From Lachnospiraceae bacterium (lineage in GTDB: Bacteria; Bacillota; Clostridia; Lachnospirales; Lachnospiraceae): a DNA stretch of 54,231 bases. The notes under the pieces are model-generated. The model was not told the DNA's origin and did no database searches. It saw nothing but the letters and a program-made list of their open reading frames with translations. The stretch lies in the NCBI GenBank assembly GCA_029068555.1, contig JAIECJ010000072.1, positions 1 to 54,231 of the forward strand. Direction: 5' to 3'. Shown here one piece after another: positions 1 through 16,552 of the stretch (position 1 is the first letter of the stretch; each line of letters opens with the position of its first letter). A program made the translations under genes and the position numbers.

Positions 1-119
1 CATAACACCAAAGTCTATGAAATCTTCTGGTAATAAATTACTGTAAATTTTCTATATATTATATCAAATGGCATGAAAATTTTATACAAAACGACGAATT
101 ATTCAAAAGGATGGAAGAA

Positions 120-1469
120 ATGTCCGCTGACAATACCATAACGAAAACGGTCTGGCAGTATAGCGAACCGCTGCCGGGGGAGACAATGGAGTTTTTAAAA
201 GGCATTGCCCTTGATTACTGCAAAGTCAAAAATTATGTTTATAGAAAGTATTCCGGGGTCAAAAATTTGAACAACCTGACACCGGTTTATGGTATTTTGA
301 ACGAGATGCGTCACTGTGGACTGCGGGAACAGTTAAATCTTCCGGCTGTATACTATGAGCTTGCGATAGCAGATGCTGTCACAAATATTAAATGCAGCTG
401 GGGGACTGTGAAGAATAAAATTGGTGAGTGCGTTGCGGCAAATGAAAACCTGAGTGATGATGACCGGAAATATTTGCGGACGGTTTTAAAGATGGGTGGC
501 GTATATGCTGCTGTTTTAAATCGTCAGGAATATGAGATGCCACGAAATGCAAGGGGACTTGATATAGATGTAAAACGTCTGAATAATCTATTATGCAGAC
601 TGACTAGGAGATATCTGACACAGCCCAAAACAGCGTGCACGGATTCTTTCCGTATATCGCCGAACGGCTATTCCTATAAGGATGGAGCGATACGTATTGT
701 TTGCAGGATTCCACGGAAGAGAGTCTCCATTCCGCTAAAAGATAACCGCATTTTTGACAGGCAGATTCAACTGCATATCAGGCAGAATGATGTCGTACTT
801 GCAGTGCCGGTTGAGACCAGGGTGAAGAAACATGAGGACTATACGGGCACGATTTATGTGCATATTGGGAATCAAAATATGTTTACGCTTTCGAATGGAC
901 ACATATATGGAGCGTTGCTGGAAGAACTGACAAATCCGGAAACGGAGCGTCTTGCAAGGAAAAACCGTGAACGCCGCAGAATGTATACTGCGTATATACA
1001 GAGCGCTGAAAGCGGAGATACGCATAAGGCGGAAAAGATAACAGTCAACAACCTTGGAAAGTCCAAGTATGACAGGCAGAAGGAAAAAGAAAAGGTCAAG
1101 ACGATAACATTTATTAACACCGAAATCAACAGGATGATAAAAGAGGAAAAGCCTGCCCGAATTGTGATAACAAAACCAGTTACGAATAATAAGTCTAAAA
1201 TATATGTGAAATCAGTCAACAGAAAATTGACGCGCAATTTTCATGGTTATATCAGACAAAGGCTTGCATACAAATGCAGGATCCATTCCGTTGAACTTGT
1301 TGAGATTAGCGCAAACCAGACAGGTAAAATCTGTTCTGTGTGTGGTGCGGAAGGGAAAAGGCAGGGAAGGGAATTTGTGTGTGAAAGTTGTGGGCTGCAT
1401 ACAACAATAGCCCAGAATACGGCAAAAAACATACAACAGAAATGTGCAGCAGAAGCATTGGATGAATAA
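120..1469 (+). CDS. Nuclease-dead TnpB-family protein (TldR-like)
   Basis: The protein (449 aa) has a TnpB/IS605 OrfB C-terminal half: a RuvC-I strand followed by a TLSNG turn, a RuvC-II strand, a zinc ribbon (C405, C408, C421, C424) and a terminal NTAKNI helix. In active TnpB the catalytic triad is D-E-D. Here the aligned positions are H248 (context VHIGNQ), T351 (context IVITKP) and A431 (six residues after the ribbon's last CG, two before N433), so all three acidic residues are gone. The frame is intact and the rest of the fold is conserved, so this is not simple decay. By analogy with TldR proteins it is expected to bind a guide RNA and DNA without cutting. No tnpA is visible, but only 119 bases lie upstream. 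ATG 120 is preferred over ATG 111 because the AAAAGG ribosome site at 105-110 abuts 111. A structured non-coding stretch follows directly. A degenerate transposon relic is the alternative. Confidence 0.85.
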   Translation: MSADNTITKTVWQYSEPLPGETMEFLKGIALDYCKVKNYVYRKYSGVKNLNNLTPVYGILNEMRHCGLREQLNLPAVYYELAIADAVTNIKCSWGTVKNKIGECVAANENLSDDDRKYLRTVLKMGGVYAAVLNRQEYEMPRNARGLDIDVKRLNNLLCRLTRRYLTQPKTACTDSFRISPNGYSYKDGAIRIVCRIPRKRVSIPLKDNRIFDRQIQLHIRQNDVVLAVPVETRVKKHEDYTGTIYVHIGNQNMFTLSNGHIYGALLEELTNPETERLARKNRERRRMYTAYIQSAESGDTHKAEKITVNNLGKSKYDRQKEKEKVKTITFINTEINRMIKEEKPARIVITKPVTNNKSKIYVKSVNRKLTRNFHGYIRQRLAYKCRIHSVELVEISANQTGKICSVCGAEGKRQGREFVCESCGLHTTIAQNTAKNIQQKCAAEALDE

Positions 1470-1802: not shown

Positions 1803-1843
1803 GGCAGAAGATGATTGATTGAAATATGGAATTGAGGAAATCT

Positions 1844-4402
1844 ATGAGAAAGGCACAGAGGCAGCAGGCGGAAGAACTGATCAGACAGATGGAAGAAGCA
1901 CATGATCAGATAAAAAAGTTCATAGAACAAGGCAGTACTCTTTCTGCGGCGGAGCTTTTGGAGGAGTGCCAGAACGGTGGGATTACCATAGGGACGCTGA
2001 TTGAGATGACAGAAGGCGACGGACATCCTACCGTATTATTGTTGGAAGAATACTGTGAACTGACATATCAGATTCATGAGAAACTCACAAGTGGCTGTGA
2101 TGAAGAAATTAATATCAATAAAATATATAAATTATTAAGGCAGAAATTAATTAAGGCGGAAAATAGTTTAAAAAATGACATACATATCAGAAATATAGCA
2201 GTGTTCCTACCGTATAAGGCGAGTATGTGGGACAGTCTGGAGAGTGTCTGGAAAGCGGCGGACGAGGATGAATATTGTGACACATATGTTATTCCTATAC
2301 CATATTTTGACAAAAATCCAGATGGAAGTTTTCGTGAGATGCACGATGAAAGCAGCCAGTACCCCGCGTATGTCCCTGTCACAAGATATGACACGTTTGA
2401 TTTTGGGAAACATCGTCCGGATATGATATTTATTCATAATCCATACGATAATGTTAATTTTGTCACGAGTGTCCATCCCTTCTTTTACTCGGAAAATTTG
2501 AAAAAGTTCACGGATTGTCTTGTCTACATTCCATATTATTCGACGACAGGTGGAATGGCAGAGGGGCAGTCGTTATGTCCGGCATATCTGAATGCAGACT
2601 ACATTGTTATTCAGTCTGAAATATACAGAAAATTTTTTGACAGCCAGATACCAGATGAGAAGTTTCTGGCACTGGGATCGCCCAAATTTGACAGCGTCAT
2701 ACATAAGTGCCAGAATCCGCCGGAAACACCTGACAGCTGGAAAGAGAAGATGACAGGCAGAAAAGTATATTTCTATAATACAAGTATTGGCGGCATGCTG
2801 GCAGACACGGATATGTTTCTCAAAAAAATGCGCTATGTGTTTGATACATTTAGGGGAAGGGATGATGTCTGCCTTTTGTGGCGCCCGCACCCACTTATGG
2901 ATTCGTCCTTTGATTCCATGAGACGGCACTATAAAGCGCAGTATGATGCACTAAAAAGTGAGTACATTGATAGCAATATAGGGATTTTAGATGAGACGCC
3001 GGATATAGAATGTTCTATAGCGTTGTCTGATGCATATATTGGTGATTCGGGGACAAGCGTTACATCATTGTTTGGAGTAGCCGGAAAGCCGCTTTTTATA
3101 TTGAACAATTACATCAATACCCTTCCGGGAAAAGATGACTGGCGCGGAGAGTGGTTGATTCCCCAGTTTGACATATGGGGAAATGATAAATACATGGTCA
3201 CAAAAAATAACCAGTTGTGGATATCTGAGAACTGTGATTATCATTACAGATTTTATATGGACTTGGGAAATGAATATTCCGGTGGGGCATATTATTTAAA
3301 GGCTGTGGAAATTAGCGGCAGGATATATGTGCTGCCGTGGAATGCCAGACATATTCTGGTGATAGAGAACAATAAAATCCGAAAGATTGATTTTGGGGGC
3401 GACTTTGCCAAGTCAGGTGCTTTCTATGATTACTATTATAGTGAAAAGTATATTTTTCTGCTTCCGTTTCGCTACCCACACCTTGTCAGATTTGATGTGG
3501 ATACAGAGCAGGTTTCTTATCTGACAGGAATCAGTCAGTTTAACGTCCGGAATGTGAATGGTGAATGGCTCAGGGGCGGTGTGGCGCCATATGGGAACGA
3601 ACTTGCCTTTGCTTCCCCGTCAGACAATCAGTTTGTGTTTGTGGATATGGAGACATTACAGGTGAGGGAGCTTGCGTGTAACATAAATCACAGCAGCGGG
3701 ACGTTCGTGGTTGTACCAGAGAACGATAACTTGTGGCTTTTGCCGATGAAAGGCATGGCTGTGACATGCTGGAATCCCAAGACTGGTGAAGCAGCCGAGT
3801 ACAGCAGTGTTCCGCAGGGGTTTAAGTCAGTAAGGTGGCCGGAGGAAATCGAGTGCGACGAAAAGCCGTTTAGCAACATATCATTTTCACAGGAGAGTGG
3901 AAAAGAGAATATAGTCATATCACCGAGCTGGGGCAATATGTATTTGTCTCTTGACAGGGTTTCCGGAATGATGGAAGAATGGAAAATTCCGATAGCAAGT
4001 GCAAAACGGGGGAGGAACGGCTATTTTGTGTCATCATACATGGGAGGCTTTGCGGATATGTACGCAGCGCAGGGGAAAGCGCATCATCTGATGTGGAATG
4101 ACCCGGAAAGAAGGCTCTATGATGTCAACATTGACACAAAGGAATACAAAGAAATAAATGTTGAAATGGACTATGATGATTTGGTATCGCATATGTTTGG
4201 CTTTGCAGTGGAATCTGAGTGGATGCAGTATTGCCTGAATGAGAGCGCGATCCATTCGCTAAAAGATTTTATTGAGAATAAGATAACAGGAAGTCCGTTT
4301 GACAAAGACAGACAGACAAGGGCATTTGAAAAAATAAATGCAAACATTGACGGAACATGCGGCAGGGCGGTTTATAACACCGTGAAAGGAAAAATAGTGT
4401 GA
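1844..4402 (+). CDS. CDP-glycerol phosphotransferase-like enzyme with beta-propeller-like C-terminus
   Basis: A predicted 852-aa protein. The N-terminus (about 1-100) is charged and helical, likely coiled coil. Residues about 115-430 resemble the GT-B fold of the CDP-glycerol:poly(glycerophosphate) transferase family, with LLWRPHP near 344 and GDSGTSVTSLF near 400, the usual phosphate- and CDP-binding motifs. From about 440 to 750 the sequence becomes repetitive beta-strand units with aromatic NLW, RIYVLPW and YIFLLPF blades, which suggests a beta-propeller. Expected chemistry is transfer of a polyol phosphate from a CDP-activated donor; the acceptor is unknown. It is the first gene of the long operon, just after the structured RNA. 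ATG 1844 has GAGGA at 1834-1838; ATG 1826 is an alternative with a poorer ribosome site. The propeller is much longer than the usual TagB/TagF architecture. Confidence 0.75.
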   Translation: MRKAQRQQAEELIRQMEEAHDQIKKFIEQGSTLSAAELLEECQNGGITIGTLIEMTEGDGHPTVLLLEEYCELTYQIHEKLTSGCDEEININKIYKLLRQKLIKAENSLKNDIHIRNIAVFLPYKASMWDSLESVWKAADEDEYCDTYVIPIPYFDKNPDGSFREMHDESSQYPAYVPVTRYDTFDFGKHRPDMIFIHNPYDNVNFVTSVHPFFYSENLKKFTDCLVYIPYYSTTGGMAEGQSLCPAYLNADYIVIQSEIYRKFFDSQIPDEKFLALGSPKFDSVIHKCQNPPETPDSWKEKMTGRKVYFYNTSIGGMLADTDMFLKKMRYVFDTFRGRDDVCLLWRPHPLMDSSFDSMRRHYKAQYDALKSEYIDSNIGILDETPDIECSIALSDAYIGDSGTSVTSLFGVAGKPLFILNNYINTLPGKDDWRGEWLIPQFDIWGNDKYMVTKNNQLWISENCDYHYRFYMDLGNEYSGGAYYLKAVEISGRIYVLPWNARHILVIENNKIRKIDFGGDFAKSGAFYDYYYSEKYIFLLPFRYPHLVRFDVDTEQVSYLTGISQFNVRNVNGEWLRGGVAPYGNELAFASPSDNQFVFVDMETLQVRELACNINHSSGTFVVVPENDNLWLLPMKGMAVTCWNPKTGEAAEYSSVPQGFKSVRWPEEIECDEKPFSNISFSQESGKENIVISPSWGNMYLSLDRVSGMMEEWKIPIASAKRGRNGYFVSSYMGGFADMYAAQGKAHHLMWNDPERRLYDVNIDTKEYKEINVEMDYDDLVSHMFGFAVESEWMQYCLNESAIHSLKDFIENKITGSPFDKDRQTRAFEKINANIDGTCGRAVYNTVKGKIV

Positions 4403-15490: not shown

Positions 15491-16552
15491 ATGGCAGAAA
15501 ACATCAGAATGGACTCACACAAGTTAATATATCATCCGGAAACCGTGTCGCGGTGGCTAAAGGGCGAGAATATTTACCCGGTTGAGATTGAAATATCACC
15601 GAGTGGTGCATGTAATCACAGATGTGTATTCTGTGCGGTGGATTACATAGGATATCAGCCGGATTTTCTGAAAAAGGAGACAATACTGCGGGATATTAGT
15701 CATATGGAAAAAAAAGGACTACGGAGTGTTATCTGTTCCGGTGAGGGGGAGCCGCTGCTAAATAAGGACATGCCCGATATTGCAAACGGCATCAAAGCCT
15801 GCGGCGTGGATGTGGCAATGAGCACAAATGGCGTACTTTTTACATCAGATAAGGTAAAGGAATGTCTCGCGTCATTTAGCTGGGTACGGTACAGTATTGC
15901 CAGTGCGGAGCAGGATTCCTACGATAAAATTCAGCGTGGAAAAGCAGGAGATTTAGAAAAGGTAAAAGAGAATCTAGGCGAGGCGGTACGCTTAAAAAGG
16001 GACAAAGGATTGGAAACAACGCTGGGCGTCCAGTGTCTGCTGCTTCCGGATAATGCAGGACAGCTGCCTTATATGGCAAAGACGCTGCGGGAGATTGGCG
16101 TGGATTATTTGACGATAAAACCATATTCCCAACACATGTACAGTAAGAACCAATTTGTAATTGACTACGAAGAAATGCTTGATTTGGAAAAGCAGCTAAA
16201 GGAGTATACAACAGATGAATTTGCAGTATATTTCAGGGCATCCGCAATGAGAAAAATGCATCATGAGAAATGTTATAAACAGTGTTATGGGCTGCCTTTT
16301 ATGACACATATAGATGCAAGAGGGAATGTATGGCCGTGCGTGGCACATATCGGAAATGAACAGCTTTGTTATGGAAATATCAACGAGCAGCCGTTTGAAC
16401 AGATATGGGAAGGGGCAAAGCGGCAAAAAGTCAATGAACAGTTAAACCGGATGGATATCAACAAGGTGTGCAGGGAAGCATGCAGGCTGGATGAAATCAA
16501 CAAGTATCTGGATGAATTGAAGCATCCGGGACGGCATGTGAACTTTATATAA
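15491..16552 (+). CDS. Radical SAM protein with SPASM-like C-terminus (1)
   Basis: 353 aa. The CxxxCxxC cluster motif is C41, C45 and C48 (CNHRCVFC), followed by GEGEPLL near 91, the SAM-binding GGE-type strand. The C-terminal quarter has a cysteine set (CYKQCYG, WPCVAH, CREACR) consistent with a SPASM or twitch domain binding extra FeS clusters. Such proteins perform radical chemistry on peptides or on small sugar or alcohol substrates. A related radical SAM gene follows 18 bases downstream, so they may act together. In a glycan locus the likeliest role is oxidation, epimerisation or C-C chemistry on a sugar intermediate. This is inference. Confidence 0.87.
   Translation: MAENIRMDSHKLIYHPETVSRWLKGENIYPVEIEISPSGACNHRCVFCAVDYIGYQPDFLKKETILRDISHMEKKGLRSVICSGEGEPLLNKDMPDIANGIKACGVDVAMSTNGVLFTSDKVKECLASFSWVRYSIASAEQDSYDKIQRGKAGDLEKVKENLGEAVRLKRDKGLETTLGVQCLLLPDNAGQLPYMAKTLREIGVDYLTIKPYSQHMYSKNQFVIDYEEMLDLEKQLKEYTTDEFAVYFRASAMRKMHHEKCYKQCYGLPFMTHIDARGNVWPCVAHIGNEQLCYGNINEQPFEQIWEGAKRQKVNEQLNRMDINKVCREACRLDEINKYLDELKHPGRHVNFI

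Follow-up and report, generated by a model that had tools for sequence, protein, structure and literature searches.

The window analysed here is the whole of contig JAIECJ010000072.1 (54,231 nucleotides (nt); assembly GCA_029068555.1) from a Lachnospiraceae bacterium. On the forward strand it carries a tldR-like gene (positions 120–1469), which encodes a TnpB homologue with a dead RuvC site. This gene is followed by a stretch that resembles a guide RNA (1498–1761), by a gene of a family termed c1 (1826–4402) and by a long series of sugar and glycan genes (4466–41072). The tldR-like gene starts after 119 nt, and the region 5´ of it (1–119), which is truncated by the contig end, shows no visible inverted repeat.

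A TnpB homologue with a dead RuvC site and the RNA beside it

The frame at 120–1469 is open and encodes 449 residues, with an alternative in-frame ATG at 111. The product matches the Pfam family Cas12f1-like_TNB (E=3.6e-12) and the NCBIfam family guided_TnpB (E=2.2e-14, yet under the curated cut-off, with 53.5 of 100 bits). The best PDB structure matches of its AlphaFold2 model (pLDDT 84.4, pTM 0.59) are Cas12f, TnpB and Cas12m complexes, including ISFba1 TnpB (8iaz; E=2.2e-10, TMt 0.61) and ISDra2 (8h1j; E=2.7e-10, TMt 0.60). The TnpB homology and the fold that characterise TldR proteins are both present. At the catalytic positions, the frame and the alignment read His (codon CAT, 861–863) for the Asp of RuvC-I, Thr (ACA, 1170–1172) for the Glu of RuvC-II and Ala (GCC, 1410–1412) for the Asp of RuvC-III. 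These are exactly the codons to which an earlier note on this DNA, made from the letters alone, had assigned the substitutions, and the intact frame and zinc ribbon that it described are also seen, the latter with the pattern CxxC...CxxC.

The dead residues are not a chance feature of one gene. Three intact TnpBs from genomes of the same genus, used as a control, exhibit D/E/D in exactly the same columns. An alignment restoring the acids, which the earlier note had named as a possible objection, was not obtained: D, E or D occurs at the three positions in 0 of 53 distinct relatives, two of which (L043 and L067) lack the third motif (stop) and one of which, the short fragment L037_-1, lacks all three motifs. 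The intact triad expected of an active IS200/IS605 TnpB is thus absent from the window protein and from its aligned relatives. Two clades are distinguished by their residues, with H/Y/P/C, T/A and A/P/S in clade A, to which the window gene belongs, and S/A, P/V/A and K in clade B; eight additional members carry A/S, P/A/V and K/R. In the tree, clades A and B are sisters within Lachnospiraceae and distant from the intact TnpB outgroup (SH-aLRT support 97 and 85, with a warning from the tool about long branches).

The ratio of nonsynonymous to synonymous substitution rates (dN/dS) is 0.045–0.13 in nine of ten close pairs, which indicates purifying selection on tldR; the tenth pair (0.26) is a recent duplicate, and in-frame stops are listed in the tldR copies of two genomes (G015 and G035). 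Relaxed selection, a second objection raised beforehand, was therefore not seen in 9 of the 10 pairs. The RuvC acids have been lost family-wide while frame and selection have been kept, in line with the nuclease-dead but selected TnpB that had been proposed.

A scan of species genomes yielded 37 tldR loci. Matches were found in 33 of 194 genomes searched (own included), and 28 of these 33 belong to the same genus, where 27 of 37 other genomes and the own genome have a match; two matched genomes in other families gave weak matches. Among 299 evenly drawn Lachnospiraceae genomes, nine carry a tldR-like gene. The window protein has no second match within its own genome and none in a phage collection; a plasmid collection gave a single weak match (27%), annotated as a transposase. 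One genome of the same genus (G016) contains, in addition to a clade B tldR, 19 TnpB family-model matches, some intact and some decayed.

The sequence that separates the stop codon of tldR from the following gene is strongly conserved in both clades. In the window, this putative RNA of scaffold and guide spans 1498–1761, with its 5´ end estimated from the onset of sequence conservation, and the putative 16-nt guide TAATGCGTATGATAAT occupies 1746–1761. The clade-A RNA comprises four helices with 21 pairs (27 sequences). Covariation was tested for 1616–1761 with 27 of 33 distinct stretches, six being dropped (five with long inserts and one near-copy). Changes on both sides occur in 14 of the 21 pairs against a shuffled mean of 8.1, and 94.7% of cells are paired, compared with 83.7% after shuffling and 27.6–45.2% when the alignment is slid. 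The final 16 nt belong to none of the helices but are conserved all the same. In L025 and L026, near-identical paralogues in one genome, the RNA is common and the sequences diverge just past the guide tail. An adjacent guide RNA with a conserved scaffold, as known TldRs possess, is suggested by the sequence and its covariation. An Rfam scan of the window gave no match at gathering score.

Several observations concern the surroundings of this RNA. In L025 and L026 the full module (recombinase, c1, tldR and RNA) is duplicated and different genes follow the RNA tail, as if the module were mobile between glycan loci. Two hairpins, AACTGAAAAGTTTCAGTT and AAGAACGGATCGCCGTTCTT, lie right after the guide at 1763–1810, and similar paired hairpins are found 3´ of the guide in several other loci. 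A different choice of guide, namely the sequence after TATGATAAT (from 1763 on), was rejected, as a local scan favoured the conserved tail instead; the 20-nt AATAAACTGAAAAGTTTCAG, which spans the sequence after TATGATAAT, was searched in the own genome at up to three mismatches and matched only its origin and one further position, the latter with three mismatches. The RNAs of one clade B subgroup (B2) have a different core, GGCGTTGGGGATATACAAAAACAGGTACGCC, and tails of the form GGTTCC[CT]TATTTATCC (L090, L091, L094, L096, L097, L116, L118, L119, L085 and L147).

Matches of the putative guide in c1 genes

Scanning of the tail against the own locus matched c1 codons in several relatives. The own genome was searched with a 17-nt pattern (the guide and the preceding A) at up to two mismatches. 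Besides itself, the pattern matches a c1 paralogue on another contig (C109) at one mismatch and four unrelated places at two. The C109 match (16425–16440, 15/16 to the guide) comprises the codons for IHNAYDN and is preceded by ATACA. The equivalent site in the neighbouring c1 of the window (2437–2452) has three mismatches to the guide and is preceded by ATTCA rather than ATACA. A third homologue in this genome (L081, G000:C228:724-2070) has seven mismatches and is unmatched.

The same relationship was observed across relatives. The 52 tldR loci provided 35 clade-A, 7 B1 and 10 B2 tails, and the clade-A comparison spans 23 genomes. In 32 other whole genomes, a search with the 17-nt clade-A consensus that allowed one mismatch returned 46 hits, compared with 2 for the reversed pattern. 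Of the 46, c1 genes account for 24, the tails of guide RNAs for 10 and other places for 12. Perfect hits number 13 and fall in c1 (eight, two of them beside tldR) and in guide RNAs (five). When each guide was compared with both strands of the whole best-matching c1 without a nearby tldR (tldR-less), the IHN[P/A]YDN site was the unique best match for 34 of 35 clade-A guides. This comparison omits c1 pieces that have fewer than 150 residues or begin beyond residue 130, together with a single piece that lacks the site.

The guides fit the neighbouring c1 less well, with on average 4.1 mismatches as opposed to 1.9 in tldR-less copies. Among guides that have a neighbouring c1, 31 of 32 show fewer mismatches in the tldR-less copy, with one tie and none higher (sign test, p=9e-10), and the direction is the same in 21 of 21 genomes. 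The target string ATACATAAT[CG]CNTATGATAA is present in 24 of 38 tldR-less c1 genes, in 1 of 32 beside a clade-A tldR and in 2 of 14 beside clade B. The Ile codon at the site is ATA in 26 of 34 cases, compared with 31% within the same genes. These string counts and the ATA bias argue that particular synonymous codons are kept in the target c1 and not in the neighbour copy. The target site is carried by 20 of 23 genomes with a clade-A tldR and by 4 of 11 without (p=0.005). ATACA precedes the site in 26 of 38 tldR-less genes; in c1 genes next to tldR it also does so in 9 of 32 and 6 of 14 cases.

The tails of clade B resemble codons for Y-[IV]-P-Y that lie 88 nt beyond the clade-A site in c1 (site B). 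With no preset register, site B is the unique best match in four of seven B1 guide/tldR-less pairs, each with 4/16 mismatches, and for 0 of 10 B2 guides in tldR-less c1; B2 guides rank high at site B when the register is chosen by eye, and B2 targeting of this site is a lead only. A guide that matches a conserved genomic target in the linked gene family, as in known TldR systems, is thus indicated by sequence for clade A and more weakly for clade B.

Glycan surroundings and probable invertible DNA

The c1 gene of the window encodes 858 residues. Searches assigned c1 to no Pfam or NCBIfam family and matched it to no PDB sequence; the c1 model, whose first row is the C109 copy, is nearest to UDP-GlcNAc 2-epimerases and the teichoic acid polymerase TagF, and the family is thus predicted to adopt a GT-B fold. 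Comparison of c1 from G013, G018 and the window revealed a long form of ~850 residues (the window copy) and a short form of ~460 residues (the C109 copy). A c1 gene lies near tldR in 44 of the 52 loci. Downstream of it in the window, domain scans of 14 products from 4466 to 42885 identified cytidylyltransferases, GDPD, an NTP transferase, Glyphos_transf, SIS, an epimerase, an aminotransferase, GT11 and others. The c1 gene on C109 is flanked by genes for a glycosyltransferase, an FkbM methyltransferase and a DegT aminotransferase, which marks C109 as a second glycan locus.

Among loci with at least 400 nt upstream, 27 of 40 tldR genes are preceded by inverted repeats (score at least 18) at a distance of no more than 1.8 kb; the same holds for 1 of 34 tldR-less c1 genes and for 0 of 67 control stretches taken from downstream. 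Most of them span ~100–340 bp or ~1.4 kb. A tyrosine recombinase lies near 19 of the 52 tldR loci, and its XerA/C/D-like type is known from two examples. A promoter-like string is found in the forward orientation before two tldR-less c1 genes; before five tldR genes it is forward in one, reverse in three and in both orientations in one. The string is a loose expression that leaves most loci unmatched, and the additional matches that it gives in four loci are probably fortuitous. The repeats and the string orientations fit invertible promoters of the kind seen in other phase-variable loci. In 9 of the 37 loci, as in the window, the contig breaks off less than 500 nt before the gene, probably because assembly stops at repeats or inversions.

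In the own genome, a further locus (L208, G000:C97) has a tyrosine recombinase, an upstream repeat TTCGCAGA...TCTGCGAA and a downstream glycan-like coding sequence; the match at this locus bears one TAG. C97 was considered as the missing start of the window and rejected, as it shares no 14-mer with window 1–119. In another genome, a tldR-less c1 (L121, G002:C1) has in its leader, ~167 nt before the aligned start of c1, an additional match to the guide, TAATCCTTATGATAAA; it has one mismatch to the guide of that genome and lies just after a promoter-like string.

Proposed silencing of a rival glycan locus and its alternatives

From these sequence comparisons, it is quite likely that the window encodes a TldR-type RNA-guided repressor within a phase-variable glycan locus, which would silence a rival locus and spare its own. 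An inversion of upstream DNA, as the relatives suggest, would turn the operon on. Its transcript would yield the dead TnpB and a guide RNA that begins right after the tldR stop codon and ends in the 16-nt guide. The complex would recognise ATACA as a presumed target-adjacent motif (TAM) and then TAAT[C/G]CNTATGATAAT inside the c1 coding sequence. Because the guide and c1 mRNA are of the same sense, pairing between the two is impossible, and the guide could pair only with the template DNA strand. The target c1 would be an early glycan gene of a rival locus without tldR, and its transcription would be blocked. A roadblock would be the likely outcome because the catalytic residues are absent, by analogy with known TldRs. 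The neighbouring c1 would escape through mismatches in the guide-matching codons, and the TAM-like bases there are often missing. The predicted net effect is that switching this glycan locus on switches another off. The earlier note's core proposal, a selected, nuclease-dead TnpB that leads a glycan locus as its RNA-guided regulator, is thus supported by the family-wide loss of the acids, the low dN/dS, a covarying candidate guide RNA and a guide whose best match elsewhere in the genome lies in another glycan locus.

Several points weigh against this interpretation. The best tldR-less c1 is matched perfectly by only 3 of 35 guides; 26 have at most two mismatches and three have four. Five of the 35 guides find a better match in a c1 that neighbours another tldR, and two find an equally good one there, which argues that targets extend beyond tldR-less loci. 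The full target string is missing from three genomes with a clade-A tldR and present in four genomes without one. Covariation between guide and target codons (Fisher p=1.6e-6) rests on two to three independent changes in the tree and is not strong evidence. The tldR-less status is uncertain for five of the 38 c1 genes, which have less than 1 kb of contig upstream; without these, the string is present in 21 of 33. The register and length of the guide were fixed after matches were seen. The target lies ~600 nt inside c1, so repression would need a roadblock to elongation. Finally, no inverted repeats of the window's own were seen in positions 1–119 at the contig end, and phase variation in this strain is suggested by its relatives.

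Among the alternatives, a leader acting in cis, in which the dead TnpB would bind RNA of its own transcript and help the completion or translation of long glycan transcripts in an antitermination-like manner, would explain why the RNA lies between tldR and the next gene, within the presumed operon leader, in all loci read, and why the next gene can begin ~40 nt from the guide (L008 and L009). This explanation makes the c1 match incidental; it predicts neither the best genome-wide tail matches in the c1 of other loci, nor the mismatched own c1, nor the preference for synonymous codons, and is considered unlikely. It is quite improbable that RNA-guided binding is real and has another outcome, such as activating the target, finely adjusting several c1 copies or taking part in DNA inversion or in gene conversion from one glycan locus to another. 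Seven of 35 guides match a c1 from another tldR locus at least as well as a tldR-less one, which, like the second guide match in the leader of G002:C1, points in this direction; against it, known TldRs are repressors (PMC13418256), a roadblock inside an open reading frame (ORF) fits repression, and no sign of activation was seen, although no test was aimed at it. Flanking DNA serves as the guide in TnpB elements, and the least probable explanation, that an ancestral TnpB transposon once sat in c1 and left a tail of former flanking sequence that persists through descent and not because it is used, accords with this and with the frequent proximity of tldR and c1 but not with the low dN/dS, the scaffold covariation, a tail kept although c1 proteins fall to 39–45% identity, the better match to a distant c1 than to the neighbour, or the match of clade B to a second site of the same gene.

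Repression of a rival locus is therefore preferred, and its fullest form, RNA-guided allelic exclusion of surface polysaccharides, is held with moderate confidence. In this form, the dead TnpB and guide of an inverton-driven operon would silence a rival through 16 nt of conserved-motif codons, the own copy would escape by mismatches and lost TAM-like bases, and two sister clades would target c1 at sites separated by 88 nt.

TldR is a known kind of regulator. PMC13418256 describes guide-RNA repression of flagellin genes, with one clade binding inside fliC ORFs. The fliC-associated, phage-encoded TldR described there likewise combines a dead TnpB with an adjacent guide RNA in a locus that has its own version of the targeted host gene. 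In contrast, the predicted target here is glycan-gene coding sequence rather than a flagellin promoter, and the gene is chromosomal and, in relatives, lies behind probably invertible DNA. The csrA-associated TldR of Oscillibacter and Flavonifractor, as portrayed in the same paper (PMC13418256), is closer in being chromosomal in gut Bacillota, with several loci per genome and targets inside ORFs, and in having a DNA invertase gene (hin), upstream inversions and predicted cross-targeting of paralogues. It targets flagellin and has Hin, whereas the recombinase here is of the tyrosine type. A motif scan of 127 sequences (window and loci), of untried sensitivity and with no profile search, found 0 CsrA-like and 0 flagellin-like starts. 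The TnpBs of IS200/IS605 and IS607 with their omega RNA share the fold, the zinc ribbon and an RNA 3´ of the gene; here, however, the catalytic residues are lost in all members read and c1 is a conserved partner. No convincing TnpA was found by motif scan in the 127 sequences, and three regular-expression matches are unlike TnpA.

In Bacteroides, UpxZ, encoded at the operon head, represses non-adjacent capsule operons; as in the loci described here, a regulator heads phase-variable polysaccharide operons (UpxY/UpxZ; PMC7315117). UpxZ is described there as a protein acting on UpxY antiterminators, whereas a guide RNA would give the specificity here. The literature search returned no report of a glycan-gene target, a codon-reading site, self-escape or a link of TldR to tyrosine-recombinase invertible DNA; a 2024 TldR paper (Wiegand), outside the search, may mention such loci. 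How a cell displays one coat has been studied in Bacteroides through UpxY/UpxZ, and we know of no RNA-guided answer.

If the proposed mechanism is true, RNA-guided transcription factors would govern not only flagellin but also surface glycans in gut bacteria, and would provide a mechanism for one coat at a time per cell. Predictions would reach the level of single codons, naming the gene silenced in each genome and the reason that the neighbour copy is spared. These TldRs would then be natural short-guide, non-cutting repressors that read coding sequence.
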